DNA from: Idiomarina aquatica
GTDB taxonomy: Bacteria; Pseudomonadota; Gammaproteobacteria; Enterobacterales; Alteromonadaceae
Length of the DNA: 64,000 bases
Direction of reading: 5' to 3'
NCBI RefSeq assembly: GCF_004362895.1
Contig: NZ_SNXI01000002.1
Span: 186,001 to 250,000, forward strand
Part shown: positions 3,347 to 56,089 of the stretch, one piece after another
How positions within the stretch are numbered: position 1 is the stretch's first letter
How the letters are laid out: each line of letters starts with the position of its first letter
Made by a program: the position numbers and the translations under genes
Notes under the pieces: generated by a model
Told to the model about the DNA's origin: nothing
Database searches by the model: none
The model's input: only the letters and a program-made list of their open reading frames with translations

Positions 3347-3390
3347 TAGACTATGGTCTAATAGTGTTCAGCCCGCGTATTCCGTACAAA
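3347..3390 (+). promoter_or_regulatory. acs promoter with predicted CrbR box
   Basis: A perfect inverted repeat TAGAC-TATG-GTCTA lies at 3347-3360. It is followed, 24 bases later, by a -10-like TACAAA at 3385-3390, with no convincing -35. The same arrangement (TAGAC-N4-GTCCA, 24 bases, TACATT) precedes the symporter operon at 13139-13182. LuxR-type regulators bind inverted repeats of this size, so I propose this is the site of CrbR, encoded at 8653. The assignment is inferred from position and sharing. Confidence 0.55.
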
Positions 3391-46197: not shown

Positions 46198-46378
46198 ATC
46201 GGTTTAGGCGCTTCGCGCGGTGTAGGCTCGTGCTTCGCACTCGCGGTTTGGGGGCTGCAAAGCTACACCGTCCGCAGGCCCTATCCCCTCGCGCCGAAGG
46301 CGGCGAGCTACACCGCGAGAGCGCAGCTCGAGCCTAAACCGCGCGCAGCGCCTACCCCGCGAGCGCAGCGAGCCTATT
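46198..46378. repeat. Mosaic palindromic repeat, long composite form
   Basis: Words such as GCGCTTCGCGCGGTGTAG, CTCGTGCTTCGCACTCGCGG, CCTCGCGCCGAAGGCGG and CCGCGAGCGCAGCGAGCC follow one another, joined by GGTGTAG or CTACACC linkers, and the right half mirrors the left. The right edge forms the TAG stop of the AhpD-like gene on the minus strand. The plan is the same as at 1936-2068 and 53585-53748. Short open frames across it are spurious. Confidence 0.75.
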
Positions 46379-46913
46379 TGAACTTCTGAAAAGGCTCATC
46401 GACCGGCGTCTGTGCAATGGCGTTGGTGTAGTTGCTCATGGTTTTTTGCGCAATACCCAAAATAACCTCTAGCACCTGACGATTGCCGTAGCCTGCATCA
46501 AAAAACGGACGTAAGTCAGTTTCCTCTACGTGACCGCGTTTCTCCAGCAGCGCCTCGGTGAAAATACGTAGCGCTTGTAGCTTCGGGTCATCAAGCGTTT
46601 CGCCATTTTTTAGTTGGCGGGTAATAGAATCATCAGCGCCCATCTGCTTGGCAATGGCAGTATGCGCCGGCACGCAATAATGGCAGCTGTGGTAAACGTT
46701 AATGGTTTGCCACACCACGGTTAGCTCGTTCTCATCAAAACTACTATTGGCAAACAGTTCGTGAATATCCTGATAAGCTTTTAATAGCCCCGGGGCTTCT
46801 GCCATCACAGCGTGCAGATTTGGGATCATGCCGAAGGACTTCTCAGAGCCCTCCAGCAGGGGTTTGCTGTCCTCGGGTGCTGATCCTTTATCGTGTAGTT
46901 TAAAGTCTGTCAT
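46374..46913 (-). CDS. Carboxymuconolactone decarboxylase / AhpD-like protein
   Basis: 179 residues. The AhpD-type redox motif is YHSCHYCVPAHTAIAKQMG, with Cys-x-x-Cys and the following His; the flanking helices VWQTINVYHS and ALRIFTEALLEKRG fit the CMD fold. AhpD-like proteins are alkylhydroperoxide or thiol-dependent peroxidases. The N-terminus (LLEGSEKSFGMIPNLHAVMAEAPGLLKAYQ) is typical of the longer peroxidase-related group. A GGAGAAG site precedes the ATG. With the DoxX-like gene downstream it may form a small redox unit. Confidence 0.87.
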   Translation of the reverse strand: MTDFKLHDKGSAPEDSKPLLEGSEKSFGMIPNLHAVMAEAPGLLKAYQDIHELFANSSFDENELTVVWQTINVYHSCHYCVPAHTAIAKQMGADDSITRQLKNGETLDDPKLQALRIFTEALLEKRGHVEETDLRPFFDAGYGNRQVLEVILGIAQKTMSNYTNAIAQTPVDEPFQKFK

Positions 46914-46986: not shown

Positions 46987-47886
46987 CTATTGCGTTAACG
47001 GCGCGACAGTCTGCGCAATAAAACGTTTGATCAGCGTCGTATCTTCGCGCGGTTGGTTGTCCGCAGCATCCGCGTAATGTCCGGTTGGCTTGGCTACCCA
47101 GATCGAGTCTTTTTTAACCAGTTGCATTTGAGCATTACATAACGGGCAGGCGATCAGATCATTTTCATTGGCATCGCTGGGTTGACTTACCACCGGGCCG
47201 CAAGTGGGACATTCGTGCAGTGGAATGCCGTCATCACTGTGCATTAAAATCCGATCCAGCTGACCTGCTTCATCCAACGCAAACATCACTTCAACCCAGC
47301 GTTGATGAAATTGCGAACCGCTGTTCTCTTGCAATATGCTCAACGCTTTTTGTTTTGACATCGGGGCTCGATAGGGCCGCGCACTGGTCATCGCGTCAAA
47401 AGCGTCGGCGACACCTATAATCGCCGCTTCAAGCGGAATCTGCTGCTGACTTAAACCGAAAGGATAACCTTTGCCGTCAGGCCGTTCGTGGTGCAGCTCG
47501 ACAGCTTTTATGACTAAATCCGACAACGGGTGAGCAGCGAGTAGTCGTGCGCCATTGCCGGGATGCATCTTAATAATGGCAAATTCATCGTCGCTTAATT
47601 GCCCGGGCTTTCCCAGCACCGCATCAGCAATAGAAACCTTGCCAATATCATGCAGAAAACCACCGAGTCCGATGCGGGCTATGTCGGCATCCGCAAAGCC
47701 CTGATGACGCGCCATCAGCTTGGCATACTGAGAGACTCGCCATAGGTGACCGCCAGTATAGGGGTCTTTTGCTTCAACGAACCACGCCATTACAGCCAAG
47801 CTCGTCAGCAGTTCCGTTTGTGACTGCCTGGATAAGGGCGTCGCAGTTGCTGCGCCAGACCATAACGCTTTAAGTCGATTAAACAT
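46987..47886 (-). CDS. HD-GYP domain protein with C-terminal zinc ribbon
   Basis: 299 residues. The HD-GYP domain (about 28-205) has HLWRVSQYA, HD at 79-80 in FLHDIGKV, MHPGNGARLL, HHERPDGKGYP at 132-142 and VADAFDAMTSARPYR. These are the residues of an active cyclic-di-GMP phosphodiesterase. A treble-clef or zinc-ribbon-like tail follows with CPTC (226, 229) and CPLC (247, 250). No receiver or sensor domain is present, so the zinc ribbon may be the regulatory or partner-binding part. It is divergent from the bufferin operon and shares its 171-base upstream region. Confidence 0.9.
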   Translation of the reverse strand: MFNRLKALWSGAATATPLSRQSQTELLTSLAVMAWFVEAKDPYTGGHLWRVSQYAKLMARHQGFADADIARIGLGGFLHDIGKVSIADAVLGKPGQLSDDEFAIIKMHPGNGARLLAAHPLSDLVIKAVELHHERPDGKGYPFGLSQQQIPLEAAIIGVADAFDAMTSARPYRAPMSKQKALSILQENSGSQFHQRWVEVMFALDEAGQLDRILMHSDDGIPLHECPTCGPVVSQPSDANENDLIACPLCNAQMQLVKKDSIWVAKPTGHYADAADNQPREDTTLIKRFIAQTVAPLTQ

Positions 47887-48057
47887 AACGCTGCTCCGTT
47901 GCTGTGTTGATTACATCATAGAAGCATTAATTGCATACTGGGAAGCGCTAAAACTCGGTACCGGTGTTTTGGTCGTGTGTTCCGTTGTTTTAGATGTAAC
48001 GCTTGGTGTTGCAAAGGGCTAGGCTAAAAATGCAACAACCAACGAGGAGTGTTTATT
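47887..48057. promoter_or_regulatory. Divergent upstream region of the HD-GYP gene and the bufferin operon
   Basis: A small inverted repeat GTTGCA (48008-48013) and TGCAAC (48031-48036) with a 17-base spacer lies just upstream of the GAGGAG ribosome site of the bufferin gene. I do not see a clear metal-regulator box or a sigma factor gene nearby. Bufferin operons elsewhere are under ECF sigma or metal control, so the regulator here must lie outside the window or be of another type. Confidence 0.35.
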
Positions 48058-48426
48058 ATGAAAAAAGCAACTGTTCAAACCGCCTTGATGACAGGTGTCG
48101 CTATGGCATCAATGGCAACAACCAGCGCGATGGCCGCCGGTAATTCACAGCTGACACTGGCAAGTGCGGCCCCACAAGAAGTGCAGCAGAAGTTTAACCA
48201 GTGGCTTGGCGGAGAACAAGTGGAAGGGCGCATGGAGCGTTGTTATGGTATTGCCCTAGCGGGAGAAAACGATTGCCGAGCGGGCGCAGGCACCAGCTGT
48301 GAGGGAACGTCGACGGTCGATTTTCAGGGTAATGCCTGGACGTTTACGCCCAAGGGAACCTGCAGTTACATTTTGACGCCCGAAGGTGAAGCTTCATTAC
48401 AGCCGTTAGACCGCAACACGGCATAA
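48058..48426 (+). CDS. bufA1: Bufferin-type metallophore precursor peptide (DUF2282)
   Basis: 122 residues. A long signal peptide ends near SAMAA. The DUF2282 core [20 protein letters not shown]...SCEGTS...[14 protein letters not shown] carries four Cys at 62, 73, 81 and 102. In Caulobacter BufA1 such Cys are partly converted to 5-thiooxazoles by the DUF692 enzyme, and the exported product binds copper. The start at 48058 follows GAGGAG; an in-frame GTG at 48049 is too close to that site. Only three bases separate it from the DUF692 gene. The family and pairing are firm; the metal bound here is unknown. Confidence 0.9.
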
Positions 48427-48429
48427 GTT

Positions 48430-49290
48430 ATGACGGGTTTTAACTCGGTGCCAGTCCGATCCCTGGGTAGCGGGATTGGACTGAGTTTTAAAGCTGATTT
48501 TTATGATGCCGTGATGTCCCTTGAACCATCTGCATTCTGGTTTGAAGTACATACCGAGAATTACTGCGCGGTGGGCGGCCCGCGGCGGCGCATGTTGGCA
48601 GAAATAGCTGAACGTTTTGCTGTAAGTCTGCATGGCGTTGCGGGCTCGCTCGGCAACAGTTCGCATGATCCACACGCCCATTTAAAGCAAGTGAACCAAT
48701 TGGTGCGGCAAATAAATCCGGCACTGGTGTCGGAGCATGTTGCCTGGTCAATGAGCGATCACGAATATTTTGCCGATCTGCTCCCCATCAAGCGCACGCA
48801 ACAAGCCCTTCAGACATTGGTTAATAATATTGACAGGTATCAGAATGCGGTTGGCCGGCAAATTCTTATTGAGAATCCAACGCACTATGTTGACTTACTC
48901 CACGACTGTGCAGAGCCCGAGTTCATGCTTGAGGTAACGCAGCGCAGTGGCTGTGGTCTACTAATGGATTTAACCAACCTTTACTTGAGCCAGATTAATT
49001 GTGGTATCGATGCCGGGCAGTATATCCGGAAGATACCGGCCAACGCGGTTGGCGAACTTCATGTTGCCGGGTTCGAGCCCGATGTGGGCGTGCATGGACT
49101 CCTAATTGATAGCCACAGCCAGCCGGTACCTGACGCAATCAAAGATTTATTGTCACTCGCTTACCAACAGTGGGGTGATAAACCTACGCTGCTTGAGCGT
49201 GATGCAAACCTGCCAGCCTTTTCTGAGCTCCAGCAAGAAGCGCAGCAGTTGCTTGATATCAAAGAGGACACTGTGCATGCCATCGCTTGA
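48430..49290 (+). CDS. bufB1: DUF692 multinuclear non-heme iron oxidase (bufferin maturase)
   Basis: 286 residues with a TIM-barrel DUF692 fold. Conserved metal-site stretches are LGSGIGLSF, WFEVHTENY, SLHGVAGSLG, VSEHVAWS, IENPTHYVD, LMDLTNLYL, ELHVAGFE, VHGLLIDSHS and LERDANLP. MNIO enzymes such as MbnB and BufB1 use two or three iron atoms and O2 to remodel Cys residues of a precursor peptide. Its substrate is surely the adjacent DUF2282 peptide. It overlaps the partner gene bufC by 14 bases. Confidence 0.92.
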   Translation: MTGFNSVPVRSLGSGIGLSFKADFYDAVMSLEPSAFWFEVHTENYCAVGGPRRRMLAEIAERFAVSLHGVAGSLGNSSHDPHAHLKQVNQLVRQINPALVSEHVAWSMSDHEYFADLLPIKRTQQALQTLVNNIDRYQNAVGRQILIENPTHYVDLLHDCAEPEFMLEVTQRSGCGLLMDLTNLYLSQINCGIDAGQYIRKIPANAVGELHVAGFEPDVGVHGLLIDSHSQPVPDAIKDLLSLAYQQWGDKPTLLERDANLPAFSELQQEAQQLLDIKEDTVHAIA

Positions 49291-49987
49291 ACGGGAAATG
49301 ATTAAGAATTTTCGATTTGGGTGCGCGAGTCACCGATTTGCGATTTATGCAAATAATCGGATGGCGGCACTACGCACAGCCTTAGAGCAGAATTTTAAAA
49401 CATTAGTTGCTTATTGCGGTGCGCCTGGCGTGCGACCGTTGTTGCGCGAGTATTGTCAGGCTCACCCGCCGACCTCGCCCTATTTAGTCTATTTTGGAGA
49501 GCGACTCAGCGAGTTTCTCCGTCGCCGGGGTTTGTTCGTTGAGGCCGACCTTGCTGCGCTCGACTATGCCTGGCTGTCGGCGCTAATGGCGCCTGAAGTC
49601 ATTGCTGCCGCGGCCACGCAGCTGACTAAGCCCGGCCGGCTGTCACAGCTACAGTTAAATCCTAGCTTTTGTATCTGTTCGTGTCAGACACACAACTTAG
49701 CACAATGGTTGTCATTAACGCAGCAAAGCACACAACAACCATTGCCGAATCAGGATGACAATGCGCAACTTCATACAATCGATGTCTTACTTTACCGCAA
49801 CCAGCATATGCAGATTAATGTGTTGCCATTGAATGAGCCTGAGTCGCTGTTTATTGAATGTTTGCTACAAGGTTTAACCGTAGAGAAGGCGGCGCAAAGG
49901 GTTGCCAGTGGATACCCTGCATTTTCCCTGAGCGAGTGGTTTGCGCGCTTACTTGTTATGGGAGCCTTTTATGAAAAGTCTGAGTAA
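49277..49987 (+). CDS. bufC1: DUF2063-type partner of the bufferin oxidase
   Basis: 236 residues from the ATG at 49277, inside the bufB 3' end. The N-terminal DUF2063-like domain (about 10-105) shows FRFGCASHRFAIYANNRMAALRTALEQNF and YLVYFGERLSEFLRRR. The C-terminal half (about 150-235, INVLPLNEPESLFIECLLQGLTVEKAAQRV) is a peptide-recognition-like region. In known systems this partner binds the precursor and complexes with the oxidase. It ends 17 bases into the DoxX gene. Confidence 0.85.
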   Translation: MPSLEREMIKNFRFGCASHRFAIYANNRMAALRTALEQNFKTLVAYCGAPGVRPLLREYCQAHPPTSPYLVYFGERLSEFLRRRGLFVEADLAALDYAWLSALMAPEVIAAAATQLTKPGRLSQLQLNPSFCICSCQTHNLAQWLSLTQQSTQQPLPNQDDNAQLHTIDVLLYRNQHMQINVLPLNEPESLFIECLLQGLTVEKAAQRVASGYPAFSLSEWFARLLVMGAFYEKSE

Positions 49988-50486
49988 AGTCCCGGAGTTC
50001 GCTCGAGACAGTGTTTTGCTGGGTACACGCTTGTTATTGGGGCAAGTTTTTCTTGCTTCAGGGTTATCAAAATGGAACGCCTGGTTTGACTTTGATGAGT
50101 CGAAATTAACGTTATTTAAATACGAGTTTTTTTGCCCTGATCCGCCGCGGGAAAATGCGTTGCAATTGTGTGAGGCAGCAACTTTAAGTTACCCACCTGA
50201 CAGTTTTGGACTCTGGATTGCAGAGACTATGGCGTATCTTGCCGGTGTAACCGAAGTGGTGTTACCTGTGCTGCTCATTGCGGGTCTACTGAGTCGTCCG
50301 GCCGCTATGGGCCTGCTGGGTATGGCACTGTTCATACAGTTAGCGGTGTATCCCAGCTGGGGGCACTTTATTAATCCGGCTGCCTGGTGGCTGCTTGCTG
50401 CGGGCTTCATTATCGTATTCGGGCCCGGCCGCTTGAGTGCTGACTTTATTATCCGCAAGTTTTGGCTTAAAAGGAAAAAACTATGA
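49971..50486 (+). CDS. DoxX-family membrane protein of the bufferin operon
   Basis: 171 residues from the ATG at 49971, which follows GGGAG and overlaps bufC. DoxX features: [26 protein letters not shown], a short periplasmic loop with two Cys ([17 protein letters not shown]), [39 protein letters not shown] and a last helix [14 protein letters not shown]. DoxX genes are a frequent fourth member of bufferin clusters, probably for redox or export support. It overlaps the chemoreceptor gene by four bases (ATGA). Confidence 0.85.
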
Positions 50487-52099
50487 AGCTAGTGCATAAG
50501 ATCTCGTTGGCATTTACTGCGGTGGCATTGGTTTTTGTGGTGTTTATCAGCTTGATGGTATTCACACTGAATGTTAACCAACAAAGTATCGAGCGGATTG
50601 ATCACTACAATAATCAGCTAACAACTGCCGGCACCGCACAACGATTGCTATTAGCGATGGAAAATGGTCAGCGAGGCTTCATTATTACTGGTTATGACGA
50701 TTTTATGGCGCCTTATTCTACCTCTCTTACTCAGTTTAACGACAGCCTTGCTGGGTTGAGAAAGTCGGAGTCGACTGCGGCCGGAAACAACGCATTGCAG
50801 GATATTCGTGATATTTTTGATGGCTGGCACGAGATCGCTTTGTTACCCACTATCGAAATGGCAAAGCAGGGTGATTTAGAACAAGCCCGCCGATACATTG
50901 GTCAAGCACGTGGTGAAATGCTGTTGGAGGATTTACGTACCCTGTTTGCTGATTATCGAACACTCAAACACGAGGCTATTACGCAACAACAAAAAAAGGC
51001 GACGTTTTATGACCAGCTGAGCTTTTGGGTTATGTTTGGCGGTGCGGGGTTACTTTTACTCGTAATTTTGGTTGCTGCGCTGTCAATTCGGCAGCAGCTG
51101 TTAAGTCGCCTGCAACAGGTCACTGATGTGGCGGGTGCAATTGGTCAGGGTAATTTAGCTAAACCAGTAGCGACTGACCAAGCCGATGAAATTAATGCCG
51201 TTATGCTTGCACTGGAGCATATGCGCAGGCAATTACAGCACACACTTGATGGTGTTCAGCGCGCCAGTGACGAGATTCATCAAGTCGGCAATGATTTAGT
51301 GAGCACAGCGAGTGAGCTAAGTCATACCGTAGAGCGGGAGAGTGTGACAAGCGATGAGGTAGTGCAGGCTATTGATGCGTTAAATGACCACATTGAACGT
51401 GTTGTGACACAATCTTCGCAAGCCGGGGAAGTTGCTGCTGGCGCTGGCGGGCGTGTGCATGAGAGCGCATCGACTGTCGAGCATGCGGTGGCGACGATGC
51501 AGTCGATTGCGACGTCAGTTAACGAAGCGTCATCAGATGTGCATAGCCTGGGGAAACAGTCCCAGCAAATCACCGAAATTATCGACACCATTAAAATCAT
51601 CGCTGACCAAACTAATTTACTGGCACTCAATGCCGCTATCGAGGCAGCTCGTGCCGGCGAACATGGCCGAGGCTTTGCGGTGGTAGCTGATGAGGTCAGA
51701 GCGTTGGCTAACCGAACCAGTCGCTCGACCGGTGAGATAGAAGCGATGATCGAACAAATTCAGCAGGTTGCACAACGCTCAGTAACGCAAATGAATGCGG
51801 GCGTGGAGCGGGTCAATCAGGGGGTTGAAGAAGGGCAGGCAGCTAAGCAAGCAATGCAGACGATTCAAACGCATTTTGATGAAGTCGTTGCGCTGGTTAC
51901 GCAGATATCGACTGCGTTGGATGAACAAAAACAAACCAGCACAACGTTATCAGCAAGTAGTAAAGAATTTCAGCGCAGCGTTGATGAAACAGCAAGTGCC
52001 AGTCAAACAACCAGCGCAGCGGCTGAACAACTCGATCGCTTATCGGCGCAGCTGCAACAGTCTTTAAAACAGTTTCAGCTTAAAGGCACATCAGTGTGA
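50483..52099 (+). CDS. Methyl-accepting chemotaxis protein in the bufferin operon
   Basis: 538 residues. TM1 is at about 9-30. A CHASE3-like periplasmic helical bundle (about 35-175) contains [22 protein letters not shown]2 is at about 182-204 and a HAMP domain at about 204-258. The cytoplasmic coiled coil has the conserved tip [19 protein letters not shown] and the stretch [22 protein letters not shown] from about 375. It overlaps the DoxX stop by four bases, so it is translationally coupled to the bufferin genes. This hints that the ligand is linked to the metal or stress that the bufferin handles. No C-terminal CheR-docking pentapeptide is seen. Confidence 0.9.
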
Positions 52100-52106
52100 G
52101 GAGTTA

Positions 52107-53021
52107 TCACAACTCACGGTAATGATTAGCCGAAACGTTGGCATAGCGCTTAAAAAAGCGGCTGAACGCGGTTGCAGACTGATAGCCCAGTTGCTCAGCG
52201 ATAAGTTCCAATGGCAGGTTGGTATTACTGAGCAACATGCGTGCACGTTGCAGACGCAATTGATCAACCAACTTTTTCGGTGCCAGACCCGTTTGCTTGT
52301 GACAGCGTTCGGCGAACGCACTCGGTGATAAAAACACTTTTCGCGCCATAGCCTCGACGGACCAGTCGCCGCCGGGTTCGTCAATGATGGCAAGCACGAG
52401 TGTGCGTAAGTGACGATCCTGCAACGCGGCCAATGGGCCATTAAGTTCTTGGTGGGCTTCAAGCACTGCCCGTAGCAGGTGAATGGCCAACACATCACTC
52501 AAACGTTGTACGATAGTTTGGCTACCGGGCTCGCCGGCTTGAGTTTCGGTTCTGATCATACGAATCAGTGCTTGCATATCATGCGCTTGTTGTTGGTGAT
52601 TAAGCACTATCCAGGGCGGCAATAACCTGAACACGGTGTCGGTGATCTGTGACGGGCTGTCAATGTCGTAGCAGACAACGCCGTTTTGTTGATGTTCAAG
52701 TTGGCAAAACTGCGGAATATCTTGTTCAGGAATTTCGCTGGGTACGGGCTGGCGACTCAGGAAATGTGAAATGCCTTGATTAACGAATACCACATCGCCT
52801 GCATGAAGCGCCTGCACGTCAGTCTGGTTTGACGGAAACCCAAACCAACAATCGCCTTGTGTTATTAGGTGCAGAGCTGCTTTGTCGGGCTCTCGGGCGA
52901 GTAGGGTCCAGTCGCCACACAGGCCCGACTGAAAGTGAAACTCGGTGCCTTGTGCAACTTGATTGAGTAGCGCATCAACAGTATTTGGTGTTTTGGTTGC
53001 TGAGTCCGGTGTTTTAGTCAT
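52107..53021 (-). CDS. AraC-family regulator with N-terminal cupin
   Basis: 304 residues. An N-terminal cupin of the AraC type (about 20-190, TEFHFQSGLCGDWTLLAREP, ALHAGDVVFVNQGISHFL) precedes the AraC double HTH (about 205-303): WSVEAMARKVFLSPSAFAERCHKQTGLAP and LPLELIAEQLGYQSATAFSRFFKRY. This architecture often controls an adjacent transport or metabolic gene. It converges on the bufferin operon and is divergent from the small gene at 53094, upstream of a siderophore-type receptor, which is its likeliest target. The ligand is unknown. Confidence 0.88.
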   Translation of the reverse strand: MTKTPDSATKTPNTVDALLNQVAQGTEFHFQSGLCGDWTLLAREPDKAALHLITQGDCWFGFPSNQTDVQALHAGDVVFVNQGISHFLSRQPVPSEIPEQDIPQFCQLEHQQNGVVCYDIDSPSQITDTVFRLLPPWIVLNHQQQAHDMQALIRMIRTETQAGEPGSQTIVQRLSDVLAIHLLRAVLEAHQELNGPLAALQDRHLRTLVLAIIDEPGGDWSVEAMARKVFLSPSAFAERCHKQTGLAPKKLVDQLRLQRARMLLSNTNLPLELIAEQLGYQSATAFSRFFKRYANVSANHYREL

Positions 53022-53093
53022 GTTGTTTTGCTTTGGACAGTGTCATTATTTAGTAAATCACTCGCTAAGAGTGCAGTAAAGGGGTAATCGTCA

Positions 53094-53537
53094 TTGGCAA
53101 TCAAAACGGTAACATTAGCGCGTCCGCATCCGGCTATCGTCGGTGATATGGTTCCTTTTTTAGAAAAGTTGGGTATTGAGGTAGAGCAAATAACGCGCCT
53201 TGAACAGTTGCAATACGAGCTGACGTTAACAACCGATGCAGTGGTGATTTCATTAGCCGTGACCTCAACTGTAAGAGCAACCGTTGAGCGTGTGCTAAGC
53301 GAAGTAATGCGATTGAATCCTAACGTGTTACTCATTTTTTCCAGTGAGTTACCGCTTAAAAAGAAACAGAAGAACTTATTTTATATGTTATCACGCTACT
53401 TTGAGAATCCTTGCATCACCGATTGTGATAATGAATGCGCTCCGACCTATGATGGGCGCTGTCTGTATATTTGTGGTGATGATTTAAAGCTTGAAGGGCG
53501 CCGACAAAAAGTAAGGGATTTGATAAAACGTTATTAA
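53094..53537 (+). CDS. Unrecognised protein with a Cys-rich C-terminal segment
   Basis: 147 residues, no family recognised. It starts at a TTG (53094) after AAAGGGG; the next ATG would remove 18 residues. The N-terminal 80 residues (VTLARPHPAIVGDMVPFLEKLGIEVEQI, DAVVISLAVTSTVRATVERVLSEVMRLNPNVLLIFSS) look like an alpha/beta receiver-like fold without the acidic pocket. The C-terminal part has five Cys within about 30 residues (NPCITDCDNECAP...GRCLYICGDD). That spacing could bind a metal or an iron-sulfur cluster. It is divergent from the AraC gene, so it may be controlled by it. Confidence 0.6.
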   Translation: MAIKTVTLARPHPAIVGDMVPFLEKLGIEVEQITRLEQLQYELTLTTDAVVISLAVTSTVRATVERVLSEVMRLNPNVLLIFSSELPLKKKQKNLFYMLSRYFENPCITDCDNECAPTYDGRCLYICGDDLKLEGRRQKVRDLIKRY

Positions 53538-53584
53538 AACATCCAAAATACCAATGAGTTACGTAATCCAATGACGATGTAGGC

Positions 53585-53748
53585 TTTGCGGTATAGGCGC
53601 TTCGCGCGGTGTAGCTCGTCGCCTTCGGCGCGAGGGTATAGGGCCGAAGGCCGGTTTAATGCGTGAAGCTTATACCCCCTCGCGCCGAAGGCAGCGAGCT
53701 ACACCGCGAGTGCGCAGCACGAGCCTACACCGCGCGCAGCGCCCAAAC
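53585..53748. repeat. Mosaic palindromic repeat, long composite form
   Basis: Starts TAGGCGCTTCGCGCGGTGTAG and ends CTACACCGCGCGCAGCGCC, so the two ends pair. Inside are CTCGTCGCCTTCGGCGCGAG, GGGCCGAAGGCC and CCTCGCGCCGAAGGCAGCGAGC words. The plan is that of 46198-46378 and 1936-2068 with different hairpin words in some slots. It lies just upstream of the receptor gene at 53774. Confidence 0.75.
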
Positions 53749-53773
53749 CAGAATCAATCGATAGGATAAAGCA

Positions 53774-56089
53774 GTGAAGAAAACAGTTATTTTGGCCTTA
53801 ACGGCCATCCCGCTGGCAGCCCCTGTTATGGCACAAGAGCCAATGGAAGTCATTGAAGTGATGGGCCGCGATAGCGAACAGCTGGTATTGCCGTCGGAAG
53901 AAGAGACCGAAGGCTTATTTGGATTGGCTGAGAGTCTCAAGGATATTCCGCGTGCGGCGACGGTGATTAATGAATCGCTGATGCAGGAAGCGGCGATCGA
54001 TGACTTGCACGATATTGCGCGTTTTGTGCCCAACAGCTATGCAGCGGCTGGCTTTGGCAACCCGTCACTGCCAACTATTCGCGGCCAGCTGGGCGAATTA
54101 TATGAAGCCGGTATGCGCCGTCAGGCCGGTAATAATGGCTTAGGCATTCCGATGTCCTTTAATGCCATCGAGGGCATTGCGGTGGTTAAAGGCGCACCGC
54201 CGGTGATGTTAGGCACCAGTCAGCGGGTCGGCGGTTTTGTTAATTTACAGCCCAAAAACGCCAACGTTAACCGTGCTCACACGCGACTGGCGGGTGAGTG
54301 GGGGCAATGGAGCCAATACCGTCTGCAGTTAGACCACAATGCGGTATTAAAAAGTGATGAACAGGCATTGCGGGTCAGTGCTGAATATATCGATGAAGAC
54401 AGCTTCTACGATTATCACCAGCACCGCAGCGATGACTTATTGGTCGCTTACCAGTGGCAGCCCAATAGCGATACCCAGCTTGACGTCGCATTGGAGTATT
54501 ATGACGTCGCCTGGACCGACAATGCCGGCATCAACCGGCCGACACAGAACCTCATCGATAATAATATGTACATTACCGGCCAGGGCGTGCAGCCTAACGG
54601 ATCGACGGTGCCGGGTGCCGGTGCGGTTATTAGCCCGACTGGCGAAGTGCGCATTGATCGCAGCACCACACTGAACGATCCACGCGACACTAATACCGCG
54701 GAAACGACCTTGCTGCATGCTAAGTTGCAGCATTACTTTAATGACGACCTGGTGTTAGTTAATCGCACTTATTATCAGTATTTAACCCGCGAAGGCATCA
54801 ATCAGAATAGCTTTGTCGAGATCATCGATGACGCCCATACCTTTGAGAACCGCACCGAGCTGCATATTGCCAAAAAGACAGTGATCGGTGCTAATTTGCG
54901 GGTTAATGATGTGTTGGGTTACAGCCAGTTCACGACCGAAGCAGACAATCCAATCGATTTAACAGGCCCGTTGAGCAACCGTCGCATTCCATTGACTGAT
55001 GCGCAGCAAGCGCGATTAATCGAGCTGCGACCGGGGCTTTTTGTGTCGCCGGGCGGCCAATACGATTTAGACGGCGATGGTGCCGGTGATTTTAATCTGT
55101 CTGATACTACCGACTCGACCAGCTATCAGTGGGGTGTGTTTGCGCAACACGAGCAGGCACTAACCGAACGCTGGAGCATCACAGGCGGCGTGCGAGCCGA
55201 TTATTATGACGTCGATGCCGAAGATCCGCTGGCGCCTGCCGGTGTTGAAGCGCAACGTGACGGCTACAGTGACTGGTTATCGGCGCTGAGTTTATCCACA
55301 CAATATGCCTGGACGCCGGATTTAACCCTGTATGCAACCGCCTATAAAAGCGACTCGACCTCGAATTCTATGGCCGGCGGCACCGTACTGAATGCGGCTG
55401 GTGTGATTGATGAACAGAACTTTGCCACCGAAAACGAATTGTATGAAATTGGCCTGAAATACGCACCGTCTGATGCGCGCTGGTATGCCGACGCGACGCT
55501 GTTTGACCAAACCCGCAGCCTGCGTAATCGCGATGGCTCTAACAGCGGTATTCGAACCGAAGGTATTGAAGGCCAGTGGCATTTTGCGGCTGACGCATAC
55601 TGGGTAACATTGGCCGCCAGTTATATTGATGCCTACTGGGATAATTCGGCGTCGTCGCAGGGCACCGGCCAGGTTGCTGATGCCTTTGATGATTCGCGCC
55701 CTGATATTATCGAGGGCACCGGTGTGGGCTCGCCAAATTTCACCTTGTTTCCGGCATCGACTCAACAATTGCAGGGTATTCCAGAGGTGCAGGCGTCACT
55801 TGTGGCGGGCTGGTCGATCACGGAAAATTGGTCGGTGGGCGGTGATTTAAGCTATACCAAGCACTTTCCGCTGGACTATCTGCAAACGGTGTTTATCCGT
55901 GACCAGCATACCCTGAATTTGCACACGCAGTACCGTGTGACGCCGCAACTGACCGCACGGCTGGATGTATTTAATGTCACCGATCAGGATAACTGGTCAC
56001 CGGTATTCGAAGGCGGCTATTTTGGTGCCACGCTGGCATTTCCATCGCAGCCCGTGCACGCTCAGTTAAGTGTGCGTTACGCATTTTGA
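53774..56089 (+). CDS. TonB-dependent siderophore-type receptor
   Basis: 771 residues. The signal peptide ends APVMAQ; a TonB-box-like MEVIEVMGRD follows. The plug has LAESLKDIPRAATVINESLMQEAAIDDLHDIARFVPN and IEGIAVVKGAPPVMLGTSQRVGGFVNLQPK, of the FhuA/FpvA siderophore group. The barrel ends AQLSVRYAF. This differs from the five nutrient receptors upstream in size and plug type. The AraC regulator and Cys-rich protein just upstream may respond to the same ligand. Codon use is less biased than in the nutrient receptors. Confidence 0.9.
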   Translation: MKKTVILALTAIPLAAPVMAQEPMEVIEVMGRDSEQLVLPSEEETEGLFGLAESLKDIPRAATVINESLMQEAAIDDLHDIARFVPNSYAAAGFGNPSLPTIRGQLGELYEAGMRRQAGNNGLGIPMSFNAIEGIAVVKGAPPVMLGTSQRVGGFVNLQPKNANVNRAHTRLAGEWGQWSQYRLQLDHNAVLKSDEQALRVSAEYIDEDSFYDYHQHRSDDLLVAYQWQPNSDTQLDVALEYYDVAWTDNAGINRPTQNLIDNNMYITGQGVQPNGSTVPGAGAVISPTGEVRIDRSTTLNDPRDTNTAETTLLHAKLQHYFNDDLVLVNRTYYQYLTREGINQNSFVEIIDDAHTFENRTELHIAKKTVIGANLRVNDVLGYSQFTTEADNPIDLTGPLSNRRIPLTDAQQARLIELRPGLFVSPGGQYDLDGDGAGDFNLSDTTDSTSYQWGVFAQHEQALTERWSITGGVRADYYDVDAEDPLAPAGVEAQRDGYSDWLSALSLSTQYAWTPDLTLYATAYKSDSTSNSMAGGTVLNAAGVIDEQNFATENELYEIGLKYAPSDARWYADATLFDQTRSLRNRDGSNSGIRTEGIEGQWHFAADAYWVTLAASYIDAYWDNSASSQGTGQVADAFDDSRPDIIEGTGVGSPNFTLFPASTQQLQGIPEVQASLVAGWSITENWSVGGDLSYTKHFPLDYLQTVFIRDQHTLNLHTQYRVTPQLTARLDVFNVTDQDNWSPVFEGGYFGATLAFPSQPVHAQLSVRYAF

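Follow-up and report, generated by a model that had tools for sequence, protein, structure and literature searches.

Why should an operon for a copper-binding peptide end in a gene for a chemoreceptor? The question is raised by a 64,000-nucleotide stretch of the Idiomarina aquatica genome (contig NZ_SNXI01000002.1; hereafter, the window), in which four genes of bufferin type, bufABCD, run directly into one for a methyl-accepting chemotaxis protein (MCP). Bufferins, exported peptides that bind copper, have been described as a class only recently. Most likely, one stress-responsive switch governs the operon, which makes such a peptide together with a chemoreceptor; the peptide is proposed by analogy with bufferins already described, the joint control from gene order. 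We give a probability of about one half to the reading that a Buf1 bufferin operon gained a fifth gene, such that an AraC-family regulator would switch bufABCD-mcp as a unit and the receptor would take its cue from the same stress. The five genes are:

48058..48426, plus strand: bufA, Buf1-type bufferin precursor, DUF2282, 122 residues (Pfam PF10048, 2e-21, 76.1 bits; cut-off 22.4)
48430..49290, plus strand: bufB, MNIO (DUF692) maturase of ribosomally synthesized and post-translationally modified peptides (Pfam PF05114, MbnB_TglH_ChrH, 7e-81)
49277..49987, plus strand: bufC, DUF2063 partner protein of the MNIO (Pfam PF09836, 7e-14)
49971..50486, plus strand: bufD, DoxX membrane protein (Pfam PF07681, 1e-12)
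50483..52099, plus strand: CHASE3-HAMP-MCP chemoreceptor, 538 residues (Pfam CHASE3 1e-18, HAMP 6e-7, MCPsignal 4e-44)

An earlier note, made from the letters alone, had described this run as a bufferin operon ending in a chemoreceptor, and both the sequence and the same gene order in a second species, Idiomarina sp. ATCH4, bear it out. The spacings it gave are correct to the base (a gap of 3 bases between bufA and bufB; overlaps of 14 bases for bufB/bufC, 17 for bufC/bufD, and 4, reading ATGA, for bufD and the MCP gene), and Pfam confirms its family names (DUF2282, DUF692, DUF2063, DoxX, and CHASE3-type MCP), the matches of all five genes exceeding curated cut-offs. AGGA stands upstream of the MCP start. 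From this layout, bufABCD and the MCP gene would share one transcript. Scans of positions 47600-53800 gave no excess over shuffled sequence, either of promoter-like sites (sigma-70 scan; 6 versus 6.5) or of terminator-like sites (7 versus 7.6).

The first four genes form the core known from Buf1 clusters such as that of Caulobacter (PMC12452194, PMC8224329; here and below, statements from cited papers cover the available portions of their text): a four-Cys DUF2282 precursor, an MNIO, a DUF2063 partner, and a DoxX protein, the last two matched by Pfam above cut-off. Buf1 precursors have four Cys, and the modification falls on the two central ones (PMC12452194). The four Cys of BufA (C62, C73, C81, and C102 in alignment numbering) are invariant in all seven aligned precursors; its hydrophobic N-terminus, with AMA-A, resembles a Sec signal peptide by eye. 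Among NCBIfam models, MNIO_BufB is the top match for BufB at 292.9 bits, slightly below its cut-off of 310, and BufC and BufD also stay below cut-off (HvfC 40.4 versus 142; HvfX 26.7 versus 80). The genome contains one DUF2282 gene. In Caulobacter, a DUF2282-DUF692-hypothetical-DoxX run (03363-03366) is tabulated, at values between 1.4 and 6.3, in a transcriptome study of copper stress (PMC8224329).

The fifth gene encodes a chemoreceptor: MCPsignal, HAMP, and sensor domain all exceed their cut-offs, and the CHASE3 sensor sits, by eye, between two hydrophobic stretches. The genome holds 18 MCP domains over cut-off and four CheW-domain matches, one of them in a 735-residue frame of CheA size. 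Within a sample of 395 genomes of the family, the closest relative of the sensor is that of ATCH4 and the next is only 32% identical; no close free-standing source of the MCP was found there, and five plasmid records with weak CHASE3 matches revealed no plasmid origin. A sequence search of solved structures at E up to 1 returned eight sequences, none of them a relative whose ligand is known. Two of the eight are MCP I, aligned at residues 172-251 (E 0.00085 and 0.001); a third is the sensor histidine kinase 3va9 (E 0.077); and the other five (E 0.13 or more) are unrelated by name. A predicted sensor structure, built on a two-sequence alignment, was set aside at a mean pLDDT of 55.3.

How firmly is the receptor fixed in the operon? 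Among 19 genomes of the genus, I. aquatica included, this type of BufB occurs in two, and both carry the MCP gene in the operon; eight of the other 17 have a BufB match at E up to 1e-30, none more than 33% identical. The second carrier, ATCH4, retains the gene order, the 3-base gap, and the ATGA overlap, and its neighbourhood matches the window from DUF547 through a TonB receptor. The proteins themselves have diverged (identities of 76% for BufA, 62% for BufB, 50% for BufC, 66% for BufD, 71% for the MCP, and 75% for the AraC neighbour), so that the receptor is better kept than BufB, BufC, or BufD; within it, the periplasmic sensor is 72.5% identical and the signalling half 70.6%. With 18 MCP domains in the genome and the order kept in a second, diverged species, the arrangement is, by this comparison, more than chance.

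The earlier note had proposed counting how often an MCP gene shares the operon with DUF2282-DUF692 genes across genomes; among the loci sampled here, the association holds in ATCH4 only. (A control run of the MCP search recovered known cases.) A scan of 84,980 species for BufB used two short peptide patterns, which miss relatives lacking them, and the best 80 of 100 relatives were taken: the MCP gene lies inside the operon in one of the 80 loci, ATCH4 itself, and in one other (L115) an MCP gene stands 3 kb off on the opposite strand. Fewer than 1000 bases followed the last buf gene in 11 of these 80 loci. A class sample of 369 genomes held 118 DUF2282 places in 96 genomes, and 100 regions, representing 107 of the 117 places outside the window, contained no MCP gene (78 also hold BufB; 12 have fewer than 1000 bases downstream). 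None was found in 40 regions of a phylum sample, taken from 66 places in 299 genomes. In 20 chosen MNIO regions, one being the second MNIO of the I. aquatica genome, ATCH4 alone has the MCP gene in the operon; in one region (L034) an MCP gene lies about 0.9 kb off on the opposite strand. These four sets may share species. Because no sampled bufferin operon of other genera holds an MCP gene, the receptor is, as far as these sequences tell, a lineage-specific addition, outside bufferin biology at large. A published survey of MNIO clusters reports additional conserved genes in extremely low proportions (PMC12452194).

Two observations arose from these sets. Three loci from metagenome-assembled genomes labelled Gammaproteobacteria (L102, L103, and L108) each have a pair of BufB-like frames separated by about 0.9 to 1.5 kb. 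The second MNIO gene of the I. aquatica genome (G000:C15, L048 5951-7307, minus strand) is preceded by a precursor with repeated EGKCG motifs, a cluster of EGKCG/oxazolin type by eye.

What might switch the operon on? A convergent regulatory gene and a repeated sequence suggest an answer:

52107..53021, minus strand: AraC-family regulator with Cupin_6 domain, convergent with the MCP gene (Pfam Cupin_6 2e-35, HTH_18 1e-19)
47963..47993, plus strand: direct-repeat putative operator upstream of bufA (GKTGTTTYRG twice, 21-bp spacing, 0 mismatches)
52987..53017, plus strand: second putative operator copy, over the first AraC codons as called, upstream of orf147

A direct-repeat spacing of 21 bp is usual for AraC-type proteins. 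At bufA, the repeat has no mismatch in the window, in ATCH4, or in Alishewanella longhuensis, and one in a further genome (G098); it recurs at the araC start of all four, with two mismatches in ATCH4 and none in the others. Allowing one mismatch, the 2.95-Mb I. aquatica genome has two copies, at bufA and at the araC start only, and a reversed-pattern control has 0. Because the repeat occupies both places and has only these two copies, the operon probably belongs to a local AraC/Cupin_6 regulon, with the AraC neighbour as putative regulator. Both exact pairs in the window have the spacing of 21 and none has another spacing of 11-59, the motif being partly drawn from one of the two; the collected loci hold 29 exact pairs at 21 and 0 at other spacings of 11-59, a count biased by pattern-picked loci and duplicate stretches. 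Matches with at most one mismatch occur in 92 of the 395 family genomes; because the reversed control also matches in many, most of these are background. Fourteen exact copies are listed in the same genomes, eight at an araC gene of this family and three upstream of bufA. Certain one-mismatch matches (G002, G007, G017, G011, and the second in G001) share other letters, look like a conserved gene segment, and were dismissed on those letters; one further site (L330, 16626), not beside bufA in its stretch, was left out.

Cys 35, 106, 117, and 240 of the AraC protein are invariant in 18 of 18 sequences (the window's and 17 chosen relatives), which suits a thiol or metal sensor. Its best NCBIfam model is RclR (NF040475; E 1e-21), an identity rejected at 77.5 bits against a cut-off of 400. 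Where the operator overlies the araC start it yields a repeated KTP motif, as likewise in Alishewanella and others; araC may in fact begin further in, or else the operator is part of coding sequence. In Alishewanella (L109 6486-6516), a second, divergent operator with one mismatch points toward genes that are, by eye, thioredoxin-like and CcdA/DsbD-like. The genome with the 32% relative of the receptor's sensor (G288), which lies elsewhere in it, also has an AraC gene with an exact operator (L327 5928-11838), an MCP gene about 3.5 kb off, and no buf genes in that stretch.

The genes flanking the operon bear on how the arrangement arose:

53094..53537, plus strand: orf147, conserved protein with a Cys-rich C-terminus, TTG start as listed (no Pfam match at E up to 1)
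46987..47886, minus strand: HD-GYP-type (HD_5) protein, divergent from bufA (Pfam HD_5 3e-33)
46374..46913, minus strand: AhpD-like (peroxidase-related) protein, next in the divergent run (NCBIfam peroxid_rel 7e-16, below cut-off)

Alishewanella longhuensis (L109/L331) and G098 (L333) share with the window the genes around bufABCD and the operator at bufA and araC. In both, however, the MCP gene is missing: bufABCD directly meets an AraC gene of the same family in convergent orientation, only 7 and 9 bases separate the two stop ends, and orf147 and the HD-GYP gene lie beyond araC. In Idiomarina, the MCP gene occupies this bufD/araC junction; in the window, its stop stands 7 bases ahead of araC. 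Because the two sister clusters have no receptor there, it looks like an insertion. In nine other Idiomarina genomes with an AhpD gene, the 14-15 kb examined contain neither buf nor MCP genes; AraC is directly beside AhpD in six of them, 3.5 kb off in one, and absent there in two. On the simplest reading, a buf/HD-GYP block would have entered an AhpD-AraC junction, and the MCP gene would have joined the operon in the Idiomarina lineage; loss in the other genomes is a possible history that needs more events.

Together, these features suggest how the system might work. The AraC/Cupin_6 regulator would bind both copies of the direct repeat, the one ahead of bufA and the one at the start of its own gene. 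Its presumed inducer is a signal of thiol or metal stress, in response to which it would switch on bufABCD-mcp. BufB and BufC, like their counterparts in described bufferin systems, would oxidise the central BufA cysteines to metal-binding heterocycles, and the modified peptide, once exported, would buffer copper in the periplasm. The translationally coupled chemoreceptor would enter the membrane just as the defence comes on, and cells expressing that defence would steer by a periplasmic cue relayed from CHASE3 to CheA/CheW. A chemoreceptor so co-induced likely serves the same stress. Overall, the locus is a genuine variant of a known operon, specific to this lineage, and the functional coupling it suggests is plausible and unproved.

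Several facts weigh against this scheme. The arrangement is seen in only two species of one genus, and co-expression alone could be a matter of convenience. A terminator-like site lies inside bufD (50415-50440, plus strand), about 40 bases ahead of the MCP start, within a count that matches shuffle expectation. The motif was drawn from three bufA upstream regions (window, ATCH4, and Alishewanella), which were themselves among the sites counted, and exact copies in G024 and G026 are near neither araC nor bufA (two of the 14, all of which were placed except that of G262). In congeners without buf genes, a weaker match (one to three mismatches) lies upstream of ahpD in seven of nine, and at araC in some; of the remaining two, one (L168) has no match and the other (L169) has one elsewhere. 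The matches at ahpD imply that the regulon may concern oxidants rather than metals. Finally, the MCP has 0 Cys in its 538 residues and is without a recognisable metal site.

The strongest rival, distinctly less probable than the co-regulated operon though a serious contender, makes the receptor a passenger that landed at the bufD/araC junction and borrows the operon's expression while reading a cue unrelated to metals or bufferin. A genome rich in MCP genes, two relatives in which bufD directly faces araC, and the MCP-free bufferin operons sampled outside the genus are all as this view expects. Less easily accommodated are a 4-base overlap kept over large divergence, a sensor as conserved as the signalling half, and the lack of a close free-standing copy in the sampled family genomes. 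A more specific version of the favoured scheme, in which one switch governs both a metal-buffering peptide and a chemoreceptor devoted to sensing that peptide, its complex with metal, or the inducing stress, we regard as unlikely. Somewhat more doubtful still is the strong form of the earlier note's idea, in which the receptor directly senses copper, mature bufferin, or Cu-bufferin and the cell moves away from this cue or up to it. The shared operon and a periplasmic sensor in the bufferins' own compartment speak for such sensing, as does copper chemotaxis through McpR in Caulobacter (PMC10579534), itself a bearer of a Buf1 bufferin (PMC12452194). However, McpR is a cytoplasmic chemoreceptor that uses Cys75 and His99 (PMC10579534), whereas the window's receptor has its CHASE3 domain between hydrophobic stretches and lacks Cys; the few sensor His and Met residues common to the window and ATCH4 (His41, His116, Met59, Met75, Met126, and Met146) do not suggest a copper site, and the sampled bufferin operons of other genera work without a receptor. 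That the MCP instead feeds a non-motility output (c-di-GMP or surface behaviour) with the HD-GYP protein, whose gene adjoins the operon here and in the two sister clusters, is very improbable, given that this gene is also present where the MCP is absent, that the receptor has an ordinary MCP signalling domain, and that the genome has a CheW domain in a frame the size of CheA.

The earlier note knew of no link between bufferins and chemotaxis, and none was found in the literature searched (DUF2282, bufferins, and MNIO against chemotaxis and methyl-accepting), in which bufferin and chemotaxis co-occur as whole words only without connection. The words chemotaxis, methyl-accepting, chemoreceptor, AraC, and HD-GYP are absent from the available main text of PMC12452194, and chemotaxis and methyl-accepting are likewise missing from the available text of a preprint on related clusters. 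Links between copper and chemotaxis, however, are in print: besides McpR, the repressor CsoR of Pseudomonas putida binds CheA and so joins copper resistance to chemotaxis (PMC11978298). The window would join the two, as gene order proposes, through a chemoreceptor within the operon rather than a CheA-binding repressor. In the literature searched, this operon-fixed receptor would be the first hint of metal buffering coordinated with movement on one transcript, and its context gives the CHASE3 receptor a short list of candidate ligands. For Buf1 clusters, sigma factor and NrsF genes have been reported (PMC12452194); the window has instead the fifth gene and an AraC/Cupin_6 neighbour, and its operator, the exact direct repeat that is new in this analysis, points to a testable regulator. 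If the one-switch reading is true, buffering and flight, or buffering and the finding of buffered neighbours, form a single programme. Metal or oxidant defence may be coupled to steered swimming in this Idiomarina.

The neighbouring genes suggest what that stress might be. The AhpD-like and DoxX proteins here, with the thioredoxin-like and OsmC-like proteins near the Alishewanella cluster (named by eye), are as suggestive of oxidant or thiol stress as they are of copper. The C-terminus of the HD-GYP protein has a weak Zn_ribbon_LysW match (4e-4, below cut-off). Across several genera, orf147 adjoins AraC in several, not all, of the relatives examined; by eye, it resembles a receiver domain that has degenerated and carries a Cys-rich tail.

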